Below, piece by piece: positions 1-7,717 of a stretch of DNA of 38,106 nucleotides; within the stretch, counting starts at the first letter, position 1; each line of letters begins with the position of its first letter. This stretch comes from Candidatus Kaiserbacteria bacterium. Its GTDB lineage: Bacteria > Patescibacteria > Paceibacteria > UBA9973 > UBA2100. Position numbers and translations under genes: made by a program. The DNA lies in NCBI GenBank assembly GCA_002401495.1, contig NVTG01000018.1, positions 1-38,106 on the forward strand, written 5' to 3'. Below the pieces are notes generated by a model, which saw only the letters and a program-made list of their open reading frames with translations, was not told the DNA's origin and ran no database searches.

Positions 1-507
1 TTCATTTAAATATAGTTCTAAAATTTCATCTTTTTCTAGGATACGCTCTATCTTTAAAGCCAAAATCCATTCCTTAACCTTTCTTGAGATCTTTTTGTCT
101 GTAGTTAGCAGTGTGTTTTTAATAACCTGCTGAGTAATTGTCGATGCTCCTTGTCCACCCAATAGATTCCCTTCTGTTAGGTTATCGAAAACCGCTTTTA
201 ATATTCTAGCTGGACGAATTCCATTGTGTTCGTAAAATTCAGCGTCTTCAATAGCAATACTTGCGTTTTTTAAGTGACGAGATATTTCTCCAAGAGGAAC
301 AACCGTTCGTCTAATGTCTTCGTGAAGATCGAAAAGAAGGACGTCTCCAGTTCGGTCGTAAATTTTAGTTGATTGAGTAACTGTACGACTATCAAAACCG
401 TCCAAGGTAGGAATTTCAAGAGTCGCTACCCATATAAAAGAGGCGCTTAGGACGAATAATCCTAGGGCCATACAAACAACGAAAATATTACGTATTTTAT
501 GCTTCAT
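1..507 (-). CDS. Class A penicillin-binding protein, N-terminal part (runs off window)
   Basis: Peptidoglycan glycosyltransferase that polymerises lipid II outside the membrane. The 169 visible residues run from the start at 507 to the window edge without a stop. They show a short cytoplasmic N-terminus, one membrane anchor (about residues 7-28), and the GT51 transglycosylase signature: EDAEFYEHNGI with the catalytic Glu, then GGQGASTITQQVIKN, then KDEILELYLNE. The transpeptidase domain would lie beyond position 1. An in-frame ATG at 525 could add six residues. It is divergent from tyrS. The family is clear; mrcA/ponA-type naming is not decided by this fragment. Confidence 0.9.
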   Translation of the reverse strand, partial: MKHKIRNIFVVCMALGLFVLSASFIWVATLEIPTLDGFDSRTVTQSTKIYDRTGDVLLFDLHEDIRRTVVPLGEISRHLKNASIAIEDAEFYEHNGIRPARILKAVFDNLTEGNLLGGQGASTITQQVIKNTLLTTDKKISRKVKEWILALKIERILEKDEILELYLNE

Positions 508-3933: not shown

Positions 3934-4194
3934 TTGAGCGATCTAAGATTGCAAGCCATTGTCCCATTGGTAAAAAAATTGGAGGAGAATAAAGATCTCG
4001 GCGGATTAGAAAAACTAAATCGTACAATTGAAGATACTTTTGGCGATACTTCAGGAGACTCCTATTTGGATGAAGACAAAAGGCGCACGCTTGCTCATGG
4101 TGTAGACGCCATACGCAATATTAAAGATGCTGACAAGCAAGAGGGCGAAGACACTTCCATACAGTCCCTACTCGATGGAATATCAAATCTCTAA
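3934..4194 (+). CDS. Small hypothetical protein (86 aa, TTG start)
   Basis: 86 residues, starting at TTG 3934 ([20 protein letters not shown]), mostly predicted helical and acidic, with a heptad-like stretch [25 protein letters not shown]. No membrane segment or signal. The stop overlaps the ruvB stop region tail-to-tail by four bases. It is probably co-transcribed with the 63-residue gene upstream. No family is recognised. The TTG start is the best available; no in-frame ATG lies upstream. Confidence 0.5.
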
Positions 4195-5192
4195 TCCTTC
4201 TGCAGCCTCCTAGGAACTTCTAAATTAAGATGTTCGTACGCACGCGCGGTCGCCATTCTTCCTCTTGGTGTTCTCTCAAGAAGTCCAAGTTGAATTAAAT
4301 ATGGTTCGTGTACGTCTTCTATTGTACTTTCCTCCTCAGAGGTTGCGGCGGAGAGTGTTTTTAAACCTACTGGTCCTCCTTTAAATTTATCTATAATTAC
4401 TCTAAGTATTTCTCTGTCGGAGTTGTTCAATCCAAGGTCATCAACATCTAACAATTTCAATGCTTTGTTTGCAGTTTCTTTATCTAGCTTATTTTTGTGA
4501 ACTTGGGCAAAATCTCGGCACCTCTTTAAAAGAAAGTTTGCAGTTCTCGGTGTAAAACGACTACGCTTTGCAATTTCCTGTAAGGCTTCCTCTTCAATTT
4601 CAACTCCAAGTATTTTAGCTGATCGTTGAATGATTTCACGTATTTCATCTTCCTTATAATATTCAAGACGGAAAGTTCCTCCAGAGAACCTGCTTCTAAG
4701 TGGGCTTGAGATGCCCGAGACTTGAGTAGTTGCTGCAATTAAAGTGAACGCCGGTAGTTCTAGTTGTATTGTTCTAGCTGAAGGTCCCTTCCCGATAATA
4801 ATATCAAGCACACCTGACTCCATGGCAGGGTAGAGGACTTCTTCAATGTTCTTGTTCAGTCGATGAATCTCGTCGATAAAGAGAATGTCTTTCTCTCCGA
4901 GGTTTGTAAGGATGGATGCAAGGTCTCCAACCTTGTCTATAGCAGGGCCCGAGGTAATACGAATTTGTGAGCCACTTTCATGTGCTATTAAGTGTGCAAG
5001 AGTAGTCTTTCCTAGTCCTGGAGGACCATAAAAGAGAATATGTTCGGGTGGTTGCTCTCTTTCACTAGCAGCACGAAGAAGAATAGAGAGGTTTTCCTTT
5101 ATTCTTTTTTGACCAATATACTCGTCCCATTTATCAGGACGTAGTGTCTTATCTAAGAAAATATCAGTATTATCGTCTTTTGGGGTTGACAT
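4191..5192 (-). CDS. ruvB: Holliday junction branch migration ATPase RuvB
   Basis: Hexameric AAA+ motor that drives branch migration with RuvA. With the start at ATG 5192 ([12 protein letters not shown]) it has 333 residues, the usual RuvB length. Visible: [12 protein letters not shown], Walker [10 protein letters not shown] at about 56-64, Walker [11 protein letters not shown], sensor I LIAATT, SPLRSRF with the arginine finger region, and a C-terminal winged helix ([14 protein letters not shown]). The frame stays open upstream to 5312, but those 40 residues match nothing in RuvB and lie over a structured RNA on the other strand, so they were excluded. The gene is not next to ruvA or ruvC here. 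Confidence 0.95.
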
Positions 5193-5213
5193 ATGAATGT
5201 GGCGTGTTAATAT
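5186..5213 (+). promoter_or_regulatory. Strong sigma-70-type promoter for the structured RNA
   Basis: Perfect -35 TTGACA (5186-5191), 16-base spacer, -10 TAATAT (5208-5213). It points away from ruvB's body on the opposite strand and predicts a start near 5220, exactly at the base of the RNA's closing helix. It overlaps the ruvB start codon region. Confidence 0.65.
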
Positions 5214-5219
5214 ATTCGC

Positions 5220-5452
5220 AAGTTCATTTTCGGAGGCAAAATTCTCTAAGCGATGAGACTCCTGGTCAATAAGAGACTTTTCGGGGACGAAATGGTCTTG
5301 AGCTTTAGGCATGCGTCACAACTGACGTCTTTCTAAAGCTCAAGGCGCTGATTCCATCCTCAGATAAGCACTCGGCTTTGCTTTTTTGCAAAGTATCACT
5401 TAGAGAATTTTATTTCTGAAATGAAGAGCACCAACACTTGTTGGTGTTTTTT
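5220..5452 (+). ncRNA. Candidate structured ncRNA with 6S-like architecture
   Basis: No protein frame explains this stretch on the plus strand, yet it has a promoter, a foldable body and a terminator. The ends pair in a long closing helix: 13 perfect base pairs (5238-5250 with 5399-5411), flanked by a 7-bp block (5223-5229 with 5419-5425) and an inner GAT/ATC (5252-5254 with 5395-5397). A central open region follows, with a small hairpin on the 3' side (CTTTGC/GCAAAG, 5376-5393). At the top is a 12-bp apical stem (5297-5308 with 5333-5344) extended by CGTCA/TGACG. Closing stem, large central bubble with a 3' hairpin, and apical stem in about 205 nt are the layout of 6S RNA. The 6S identity is inference; an unrelated structured RNA fits equally. 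Confidence 0.6.
5429..5452 (+). terminator. Intrinsic terminator of the structured RNA
   Basis: Seven-bp stem CACCAAC/GTTGGTG (5429-5435 with 5440-5446), loop ACTT, then six T. Oriented on the plus strand, where no protein gene lies upstream, which is what draws attention to the RNA. Confidence 0.8.
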
Positions 5453-5505
5453 CATTCTGTATTCACCATAGCAGTGGGAGAGCACTTTGGAAAGTTGACG
5501 ATATA

Positions 5506-7200
5506 TTAGAACTCTTTTGTAGCGACCAGGTCTTCGTCTTCTATGTCTACAACTCTTGCTAATTCATCAAGCGAAGTTGTTCCTTGAAGAACTTTCACAA
5601 CACCGTCTTCAGCTAGTCTACGTATTCCTTGAGACCTAGATGCCTTCCATATATCTAATTCTGTTGGATTAGAGCGGACTGCCTTTTCAACATCTGCATC
5701 CATTTGAACCGCTTCATAAATAGCAACACGCCCTTTGTATCCGGAGTTTGCACACTCTTTACATCCGACCGCTTCCCACATTATATCTTTATTCTTTGGA
5801 ACATCTTCAGGGCGTGGAATGTTATGTAGAAGTTTGTCTATTTTTTCCCTTGCAACACCACGAATTGGGACACTCTTTTTACAATGTTCACAAAGTTTTC
5901 TCGCAAGCCTTTGTGCCATCGCTAAGTTAATAGCACTTCCCAAGATTTCAGGTTTAACTTCTAAATCAATTAGTCTGGGGAAGGTACCTGCTGCGTTGTT
6001 TGTGTGTAGGGTAGAGAAAACTAAGTGCCCGGTTAGCGCGGCATGAACCGCAGTTTTTGCTACTTCCGGATCCCTGATCTCTCCAACCATGATTACATCT
6101 GGGTCTTGTCTTAGAATACTGCGTAGACCCGAGGCAAAGGTATAGTCTTTAGCAATTTGTGTTTGAACTATTCCGTCTAGATGATACTCAACAGGGTTTT
6201 CTAGGGTGATAATTTTAATTCCAGGCTTGTTTACGGCAGTTAAAAAGGCATAAAGAGTTGTTGTCTTACCGGAACCAGTTGGTCCAGTATTTAGAATCAT
6301 TCCGTTTGGTTTTTTAATTTCGTCTAAAAACATTTGAAGAAGGAAAGGATCCATGTCTAGAGATTCAAGGGAGAGTCCCGTGGAAGAAGGGTCAAGAAGA
6401 CGAAGCACAACAGTTTCTCCTTCGCTTCCAGGAATTATTGATGTACGTATCTCCACTTCGTTTTTTGCAACCTTTACACTGAATCTTCCGTCTTGTGCTG
6501 CTGTTTTAACATTTAGTTTTAATCCTGAAAGTAGCTTTATTCTCGAAAGAAGAAGTTTGTAAGTTGGATGATCAAACTCTAGTAGATCAACTAAAATACC
6601 GTCTAAACGAAAACGAACACGTACTTTAGTTTCGGCTGGTTCTATATGAATGTCGGAGGCATGAAGTGCTAATCCTCCTCCGATTAATACCTCGAGTACA
6701 TGAGACACGCGGCGCGCCTTCTTACTATCAATACTTTCGTCAACATTCTTCCTCACGTCCTCAATACTTTTAAGGTTTTCCTTCATCTTTTCTATTTCAT
6801 CTGAGGAAATACTAAGAACACCACCTTCGCTCGCTGCAGCGTGAGAGAGATCTTTATAGTGATCCCATGCGTGCGATAGAGACTCACTTGAAACCATAAA
6901 TAGCCTTGCCTTGTATCCAAGTTTTTCTATTTCTTGAATTGCCTGAAGGGAATCCGCTCTACCAGGTGCGCGCATTGCAACGAAAAGCTTTTTGCCTATT
7001 TTTCTAAAGGGAGCTATCTCCATTTCACGCGCTGCTTTCTCGTCGATTAATCGTAGTGCATCGGTATCAATAGATAGGCGAGTGAGGTCTACGTACTCAA
7101 CACCATATTTAGTAGAAAGGGCCTTAGCAAGAGCTTCCTCTTCCTGTTCGTAGAGCTTTGCCAGCCGCTCATCTTGGTCTTTTTCATCAAATTGCACCAT
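5506..7200 (-). CDS. pilB: Type IV pilus assembly ATPase PilB (GspE family)
   Basis: Cytoplasmic hexameric ATPase that powers pilin polymerisation. With the start at 7200 it has 564 residues. An N-terminal MshEN/T2SSE-N domain (about 20-120) precedes the ATPase: Walker A GPTGSGKTTT at 306-315, Asp box, Walker B DPDVIMVGEIRD at 366-377, His box HAALTGHLVFSTLHT, and the zinc tetracysteine CEHC (437-440) and CKEC (480-483) typical of PilB/GspE. The open frame continues upstream to 7302, but that extension is hydrophobic, unlike the family, and overlaps the tsaE promoter. pilM, pilN and pilO lie about 19 kb away in this window. Confidence 0.95.
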   Translation of the reverse strand: MVQFDEKDQDERLAKLYEQEEEALAKALSTKYGVEYVDLTRLSIDTDALRLIDEKAAREMEIAPFRKIGKKLFVAMRAPGRADSLQAIQEIEKLGYKARLFMVSSESLSHAWDHYKDLSHAAASEGGVLSISSDEIEKMKENLKSIEDVRKNVDESIDSKKARRVSHVLEVLIGGGLALHASDIHIEPAETKVRVRFRLDGILVDLLEFDHPTYKLLLSRIKLLSGLKLNVKTAAQDGRFSVKVAKNEVEIRTSIIPGSEGETVVLRLLDPSSTGLSLESLDMDPFLLQMFLDEIKKPNGMILNTGPTGSGKTTTLYAFLTAVNKPGIKIITLENPVEYHLDGIVQTQIAKDYTFASGLRSILRQDPDVIMVGEIRDPEVAKTAVHAALTGHLVFSTLHTNNAAGTFPRLIDLEVKPEILGSAINLAMAQRLARKLCEHCKKSVPIRGVAREKIDKLLHNIPRPEDVPKNKDIMWEAVGCKECANSGYKGRVAIYEAVQMDADVEKAVRSNPTELDIWKASRSQGIRRLAEDGVVKVLQGTTSLDELARVVDIEDEDLVATKEF

Positions 7201-7269
7201 TGTATAGCTGAATTTTAGCATGCCGGTCAAGAAAAGAAGGAAAGCTATACACTGGTGTGGTGCCTTTGC

Positions 7270-7275
7270 TATACT
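7270..7275 (+). promoter_or_regulatory. -10 element of the tsaE-polA-holA operon, leaderless type
   Basis: TATACT ends seven bases before the tsaE ATG at 7283. No Shine-Dalgarno is present. Confidence 0.6.
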
Positions 7276-7282
7276 TACTATT

Positions 7283-7717
7283 ATGAGCGCGCAAGAATAC
7301 ACACTTGAGGAATTTGAGAATGAAGCAAAGCTTTTTCTTTCCCAGTTAAAACCAAACTTATCTACAGCTACGGTGCTTGCTCTTCACGGAGATCTTGGTG
7401 CTGGAAAAACTACTTTTGCACAAATCTTAGCAAAAGAACTTGGGGTATCTGAAAATATTGTAAGTCCTACTTTTATAATACAGAAAAGATATCCTCTAAA
7501 GGATCAAATCTTTAAACAATTAATTCATATCGATGCATATCGTCTCGAAAATCTTGAACAACTTAAAGTATTGGATTGGGATGAATTAGTATCTGACAAA
7601 GACAATCTAATAGTGGTGGAATGGCCGAAAAATGTTGACGGGCTTTTTGATGATGCCACACACCTTTACTTCTCCTACATAAACGAGGATACTCGTAGCA
7701 TAAGTTATGGCGAATAA
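7283..7717 (+). CDS. tsaE: tRNA threonylcarbamoyladenosine biosynthesis ATPase TsaE
   Basis: P-loop protein that works with TsaB and TsaD to make t6A37 in ANN-decoding tRNAs. 144 residues from ATG 7283. Walker A HGDLGAGKTTFAQILAKELG, then the TsaE signature VSPTFIIQKRYP, HIDAYRLEN, and the late VVEWPKNVD. The start was chosen because it sits seven bases after a TATACT -10 element and matches the family N-terminus; the frame open back to 7220 runs through the promoter. The 3' end overlaps polA by 11 bases, so the two are co-transcribed. Confidence 0.93.
   Translation: MSAQEYTLEEFENEAKLFLSQLKPNLSTATVLALHGDLGAGKTTFAQILAKELGVSENIVSPTFIIQKRYPLKDQIFKQLIHIDAYRLENLEQLKVLDWDELVSDKDNLIVVEWPKNVDGLFDDATHLYFSYINEDTRSISYGE

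Follow-up and report, generated by a model that had tools for sequence, protein, structure and literature searches.

The locus and its transcription signals

The window, that is, the whole analysed stretch of 38,106 nt from a Candidatus Kaiserbacteria bacterium, carries a gene of a previously uncatalogued structured RNA between pilB and ruvB, here called the ruvB-pilB RNA. The locus comprises the following features.

4191..5192, minus strand: ruvB, divergent from the RNA gene; likely start ATG at 5192-5190; Pfam RuvB_N, lid and RuvB_C
5186..5213, plus strand: sigma-70-type promoter TTGACA-16-TAATAT; -35 box 5186-5191, -10 box 5208-5213, TG before the -10 box
5219..5452, plus strand: RNA gene (approximate; 5′ end by promoter spacing, 3′ end by terminator)
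5426..5452, plus strand: intrinsic terminator hairpin and U run; hairpin itself 5426-5449
5506..7302, minus strand: ORF of a pilB-type ATPase, its end adjoining the RNA gene; Pfam T2SSE and MshEN; start as listed

An earlier note on this DNA had placed an unannotated structured RNA opposite the ruvB start, at 5186-5452 on the plus strand, and we found that promoter, terminator, relatives, covariation and wide distribution all support it. The plus-strand terminator described there, a hairpin at 5426-5449 with a U run, is present. Its view that no plausible protein is encoded also held: with a lower limit of 40 aa, a single plus-strand ORF overlaps the element, and it is 42 aa long. The RuvB frame stays open upstream (ORF 4191-5312, with a start at 5312 instead of 5192), but in four relatives (L001, L004, L005 and L006) it is open for only two codons above the start. 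The extension is thus not conserved in these four, and a conserved RuvB N-terminus does not take the place of the helices.

A search of the whole window with Rfam 15 at gathering level returned six tRNAs only and no family on the element. Even at E<=10, positions 5150-5510 gave just MicC, mir-2813 and UPD-PKib, all far below their cut-offs and regarded as chance matches. The element had no match in collections of phage and plasmid records, and no RuvB relatives were found on viral contigs. In open-licence PMC text, the ruvB-pilB RNA was absent from the titles and abstract starts among the matches listed, which does not prove its absence from print.

The promoter had been called perfect. This is true of the -35 box, TTGACA; the -10 box, TAATAT, fits TATAAT at only four of six positions. 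Read on the minus strand, the -35 box forms part of ATGTCAA, with which ruvB begins. For comparison, the 260 nt upstream of the match were scanned for their best promoter at 54 loci with the element, which are all forward matches at hand, with same-genome repeats, L029 and L034 left out. An exact TTGACA was found upstream in 51 of the 54 and a TG before the -10 box in 50. At 52 loci the promoter score was equalled by at most 4 of 100 mononucleotide shuffles, and at the other two (L039 and L116) by 7. RuvB could be aligned at 51 loci, and at 34 of these the -35 box overlapped its start codon. Between the -10 box and the matched core lay -7 to 177 nt, which makes the 5′ portion of the transcript variable. 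At 14 loci (L001, L008-L013, L018, L052, L084, L100, L107, L110 and L114) the RNA core begins 87-177 nt after the best promoter, so these loci may transcribe or process a longer 5′ leader.

Conserved structure and distribution

Positions 5215-5455 of the plus strand fold at -94.7 kcal/mol, compared with a mean of -57.2 +/- 4.2 for 200 dinucleotide shuffles, none of which was as good (z -8.97). In the predicted fold, 5223-5254 pairs with 5395-5425 in runs of 7, 6, 13 and 3 bp, so that the 13 perfect and flanking closing base pairs of the earlier note are recovered. The apical stem that it described is likewise predicted, at 5295-5309/5332-5346 and topped by 5313-5318/5323-5328. Its central open region with a 3′-side hairpin stood in part: the hairpin is found at 5375-5381/5388-5394, but the comparative structure given below pairs most of the centre, as P2 and a lower part of P3.

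Relatives were sought through RuvB. The first six loci, from Kaiserbacteria, Paceibacterota and Patescibacteria MAGs, encode RuvB proteins 80-88% identical to that of the window, and L035 one 86% identical. The element itself aligned at 73-82% over most of its length in 7 of 40 ruvB-upstream loci (L001-L006 and L035), and the remaining loci of these 40 gave short, chance-like matches only. Farther loci have the common ends TCTCTAAGC...GCTTAGAGA and the core GGACG...CUGG...CUGG...UAUCC. Three covariance models, R1, R2 and R3, were built in turn. The conserved structure, in window coordinates, is as follows.

5230..5255, plus strand: P1 closing helix, 5′ strand; 25 pairs, 22 changed on both sides, 95.1% of cells paired
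5394..5419, plus strand: P1 closing helix, 3′ strand; the same pairs
5257..5267, plus strand: P2 hairpin on the 5′ side; three of three modelled pairs changed on both sides, 84.4% of cells paired
5273..5373, plus strand: P3 arm; lower part 5273-5282/5363-5373, GGA/UCC, tandem U.G/G.U segment, apical stem
5375..5394, plus strand: P4 hairpin on the 3′ side; U-rich loop in the window

Covariation, on which the earlier note had made its claim depend, was strong. In the alignment A6 (47 sequences) the score was 0.528 against 0.190 after shuffling, with kinship ignored and phylogeny uncorrected, and none of 500 shuffles reached 0.528. When the partners were slid by one to three columns, the score was at most 0.197. 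Under the model's structure, 91.3% of A6 cells were paired (72.9% shuffled) and 38 of 47 pairs were changed on both sides, compared with 28.5 after shuffling. The alignments had been fitted to that structure, a bias in its favour. The smaller alignment A4 scored 0.403 against 0.167, and the first alignment (n = 14) had 23 of 36 predicted pairs with compensatory changes. The thresholds of A4 and A6 (5e-14 and 2e-14) exclude reverse-strand matches and also lose weaker true members, so these figures hold for the better-conserved members. A3, A5 and A8 mix in reverse-strand matches, and our counts therefore rest on A4 and A6. A4, the basis of R2, was aligned with R1, whose P3 pairs are one column out of register.

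RNAalifold alone, run on A6, returned P1, P2 and P4 (35 pairs, 33 with compensatory changes), and P3 was missing from its prediction. P3 is a modelled arm that rests on pair counts and single-sequence folds. Its long apical stem is typical of the clade of the window. The most conserved P3 pairs (columns 140/228, U-G in 39 of 47; 141/227, G-U in 40; 142/226, G-C in all 47) say little because they hardly vary. GGAC occurs in 44 of the 47 A6 rows and GGACG in 36. With P1, P3 and P4 held fixed and the flanking strands allowed to pair, lower P3 formed at least 4 bp in 43 of 47 members, with a mean of 7.7 bp; shuffled linkers had a mean of 4.2 bp and half of them reached 4. Some single sequences, such as L008, L015 and L035, did not exceed their own shuffles, and L001 and L032 had no lower P3. 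The 5′ linker paired with itself over at least 3 bp in 47 of 47 members, a figure that carries no shuffle control, and a median of 16 linker bases were left unpaired. It seems from this modelling that P1 leads into a folded junction of P2, P3 and P4 and not into an open bubble.

Two variations of the structure were also seen. UACCCAU occurs in the 3′ part of P4 in 13 of 47 A6 members (L014, L097, L099, L101-L105, L108, L109, L111, L116 and L121), several with a GGUACC palindrome, and is absent from the clade of the window. It could be a pairing site. L017 (4399-4686) has an insertion of about 100 nt inside P2, which makes a very long hairpin; the rest matches, with 105.9 bits for R3.

R2 matched the window at 5219-5430 with 145.3 bits, the window itself being among the model's source sequences. 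Over 55 sources, R2 gave 52 matches at E<=0.01. Apart from the window, 28 loci matched in the expected orientation; a further 22 matches are echoes on the reverse strand, caused by the palindromic P1, and one is a weak match at another place. Many of the matched sequences are part of R2 itself. The reverse strand of the window also scores 38.5 bits because P1 is nearly palindromic. Among 34 loci scored with a covariance model, most had no match at all. L034 was similar by eye; it received only 8.2 bits and was excluded from the counts. L029 (601 bases; 32.1 bits, with 27.5 for the reverse strand) and L039 (34.9 bits) are probable distant members.

R3 detected the RNA at E<=1e-4 in 171 genomes out of 197 sampled from the order to which G001, the genome of L004, belongs. 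R2 found it in 50 of 285 genomes of the class, and R3 in 18 of 379 genomes of the phylum, of which 16 also scored in the R2 class search and two (G124 and G300) did not. All three counts, taken over genomes of unstated completeness, are lower bounds, since stricter filters were used and few candidates were scored per genome when more than 40 genomes were searched. R1 recovered the RNA in 4 of 192 genomes.

The gene neighbourhood was surveyed at 29 loci found through the RNA models and not through ruvB, one of which (L096) repeats L014. We found pilB in 28 of them, ruvB in 27 (only partly in L099) and both in 26. In all 27 loci with ruvB, this gene lies opposite the RNA. The missing flanks belong to two short loci, L111 and L117, and to L107.

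Some genomes have two copies of the RNA. In G517 (L141, 1504-1902) they stand in tandem between pilB and ruvB, scoring 118.4 and 87.4 bits. The 98-nt block from P3 to P4 differs between them by one mismatch, and P1 and P2 have diverged, which looks like recent duplication or gene conversion. Second copies at L142 (G569; 1457-1651 on a 5.5-kb contig) and L146 (G498; 1494-1671 on a 114-kb contig) have neither ruvB nor pilB within their 3-kb loci, and no obvious consensus promoter was seen by eye in either. The P3 core of L142 is degenerate, and this copy could be contamination. In G598 each of the two copies has a contig of its own, where it lies between pilB and ruvB genes; this assembly may therefore be a mixture.

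Possible roles of the RNA

Judging from sequence, we lean, by somewhat more than an even chance, towards a new family of RNA, shared by the majority of the genomes sampled from one order of class Paceibacteria/Parcubacteria, that would be abundant, trans-acting and protein-bound. As the promoter is near-consensus, the RNA would be made in quantity. The tandem copy, the two off-locus copies and a conserved P3 sequence that a local element would not need all suggest action in trans as a folded RNA. The conservation of sequence inside helices suggests that the folded RNA would bind a protein, either as the scaffold of an RNP or as a sequestering RNA. P1 persists as a helix although much of its sequence has drifted, and the recognition surface would be formed by the nearly invariant elements of P3: GGAC, CUGG/CUGG with tandem U.G/G.U, and UCC. 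Against action in trans, the RNA is almost always found between ruvB and pilB (26 of 29 loci have both genes), which also suits a local role, and the off-locus copies number only two (L142 and L146). The trans reading is slightly weakened, and the case for a local role raised, because neither of these copies has a clear promoter and the contig of one is short.

Such a local element would insulate or regulate the pilB-ruvB junction as a terminator, an antisense RNA or a processing signal. We consider this unlikely, though it deserves some weight. In its favour, the RNA hardly varies in position and orientation, and all 27 loci with ruvB have that gene opposite the RNA; 34 of 51 loci have a -35 box overlapping the start of ruvB; and the reverse strand scores through the P1 palindrome. 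An insulator, however, needs neither a conserved P3 sequence nor a strong outward promoter. In addition, L142 and L146 have no ruvB or pilB nearby and L141 is a tandem, although these cases are few.

The ruvB-pilB RNA might also be a second regulator of RNA polymerase that is not 6S RNA, either resembling Ms1, which binds core polymerase in Actinobacteria, or a diverged second 6S RNA. From its sequence this seems rather improbable. Some bacteria do have two 6S RNAs, and the overall topology is compatible with this role. The consensus, however, has no open 5′ bubble, and the sequences of P1 and P3 seem to be kept beyond any obvious need of DNA mimicry. As far as the passages on Ms1 in PMC9130861 go, that RNA has a central bubble plus two extra hairpins, which also speaks for a polymerase regulator, and it shares with the ruvB-pilB RNA a structured fold, extra hairpins and conserved synteny. 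It differs in length, about 300 nt against about 120-230 nt, with no demonstrated homology.

Known housekeeping RNAs and the place of the new family

The earlier note had compared the layout of the element to 6S RNA. The general layout does resemble 6S and the visual analogy is fair; the identity is not supported, and it is very unlikely that the ruvB-pilB RNA is the 6S RNA (SsrS orthologue) of this lineage. Its likeness to SsrS (RF00013) lies in its size, its own promoter, the closing stem, the apical arm, the centre with a 3′-side hairpin and the fixed neighbours within a clade. A 3′-side hairpin opposite a 5′ bulge is described for known 6S RNAs in part of PMC8414754, and this counts in favour. 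On the other side stand the RF00013 searches, a separate 6S-like gene and the folded centre.

RF00013, which the earlier note had proposed to search, gave no match on the element at a threshold as lax as E<=10. At E<=1 it had no match on the element in six relatives, and in 22 genomes that carry the RNA it gave five matches in four genomes, all of them below the cut-off and away from the element. This is weak evidence because only 6 of 14 control genomes were matched, 4 of them over the cut-off. One of the six genomes first searched (G002) scored 29.9 bits away from the element, at a locus that has a promoter and a terminator and looks like a 6S gene.

The motif GGGAG-32..62-CACCCACCTRG, derived from RF00013 loci, occurs in 9 of the 22 carrier genomes, and its reversed control in none of the 22. 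These nine have a separate 6S-like gene with CACCCACCU, in eight cases with an ndk homologue within about 0.5 kb; the ndk query ORF is Pfam NDK. By eye, the nine loci fold like 6S RNA, and none lies inside the fetched ruvB loci. Five of them belong to G199, G006, G001, G200 and G201, the genomes of L003, L002, L004, L005 and L006, and thus to five of the seven closest relatives of the window; six of these seven genomes were searched, and the sixth, that of L001, has no match. The exact motif was unmatched in the other 13 carriers, which is no proof of absence. R2 gave at most 22.2 bits on the 6S-like loci, with its top matches on the hairpin after 6S, and the 6S body was not recognised. Conversely, neither CACCCACCU nor CACCCACCT occurs in any of the 47 aligned members of the ruvB-pilB family. 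The element is therefore not the only 6S candidate in the nine genomes with the motif.

In the parts of PMC8876501 and PMC8414754 that define it, 6S RNA is a rod with a large, relatively unstructured central bubble. The centre of the ruvB-pilB RNA, by contrast, is P2 and lower P3, and such a rod was rejected because the linker pairs in all 47 members and lower P3 has at least 4 bp in 43.

As a separate observation, diverged 6S-like genes were found at L122-L130 (nine genomes) and also at L087-L090, and none was over the RF00013 cut-off in the 22 genomes. The 6S RNAs of Paceibacteria are probably under-annotated.

Two other housekeeping structured RNAs have separate genes. The tmRNA (RF00023) was over its cut-off in all 22 carriers, and RNase P RNA (RF00010) was found in 20, in 16 of them over the cut-off. 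Neither family matched the element in the window, and both identities were discarded. A tmRNA-like wording of the P3 motif was likewise dropped as a lead, since tmRNA is over its cut-off in all 22 carriers.

Signal recognition particle (SRP) RNA, a housekeeping RNA expected in bacteria, was not found in these genomes. The small (RF00169) and large (RF01854) families matched none of the 22 carriers at E<=0.01, compared with 11 and 8 of 14 controls, and neither matched the element. We considered whether the ruvB-pilB RNA might be the missing SRP RNA (4.5S), for which the lack of both families speaks, and gave up this identity as exceedingly improbable. The RNA-binding (M) domain of Ffh (PF02978) was likewise found in none of the 22 carriers, against 14 of 14 controls, leaving such an RNA no partner. 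This agrees with the absence of both ffh and ffs from the Parcubacteria genomes examined in PMC4508563, as far as the relevant part of that paper goes. A chance fold or a coding region is next to impossible: ORF 4191-5312 is open above the likely ruvB start, but the z-score of -8.97, the covariation, the distribution and the lack of conservation of the RuvB N-terminal extension all argue against it.

The trans-acting, protein-bound RNA thus remains our preferred reading. We propose, tentatively and at somewhat less than even odds, that it is a new RNA of the housekeeping class, perhaps as widespread in the order as tmRNA or RNase P RNA, acting in trans as an RNP on a core process. What is new is the RNA family; its mode of action may prove to be of a known type. 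The covariance model allows existing metatranscriptomes to be checked immediately. A side result is the diverged 6S-like RNAs beside ndk, which fall under the 6S cut-off of Rfam.

The presence of the RNA in 171 of 197 genomes, its near-consensus promoter, the covariation and the lack of a catalogued relative together point to an important function in a sizeable group of CPR bacteria. Genomes sampled from this order measure only 400 to 1,200 kb (rounded), so what all of them keep is likely to count. If the proposal is true, these reduced bacteria would keep such an RNP, for transcription, translation or protein targeting, even though SRP was not found in them.
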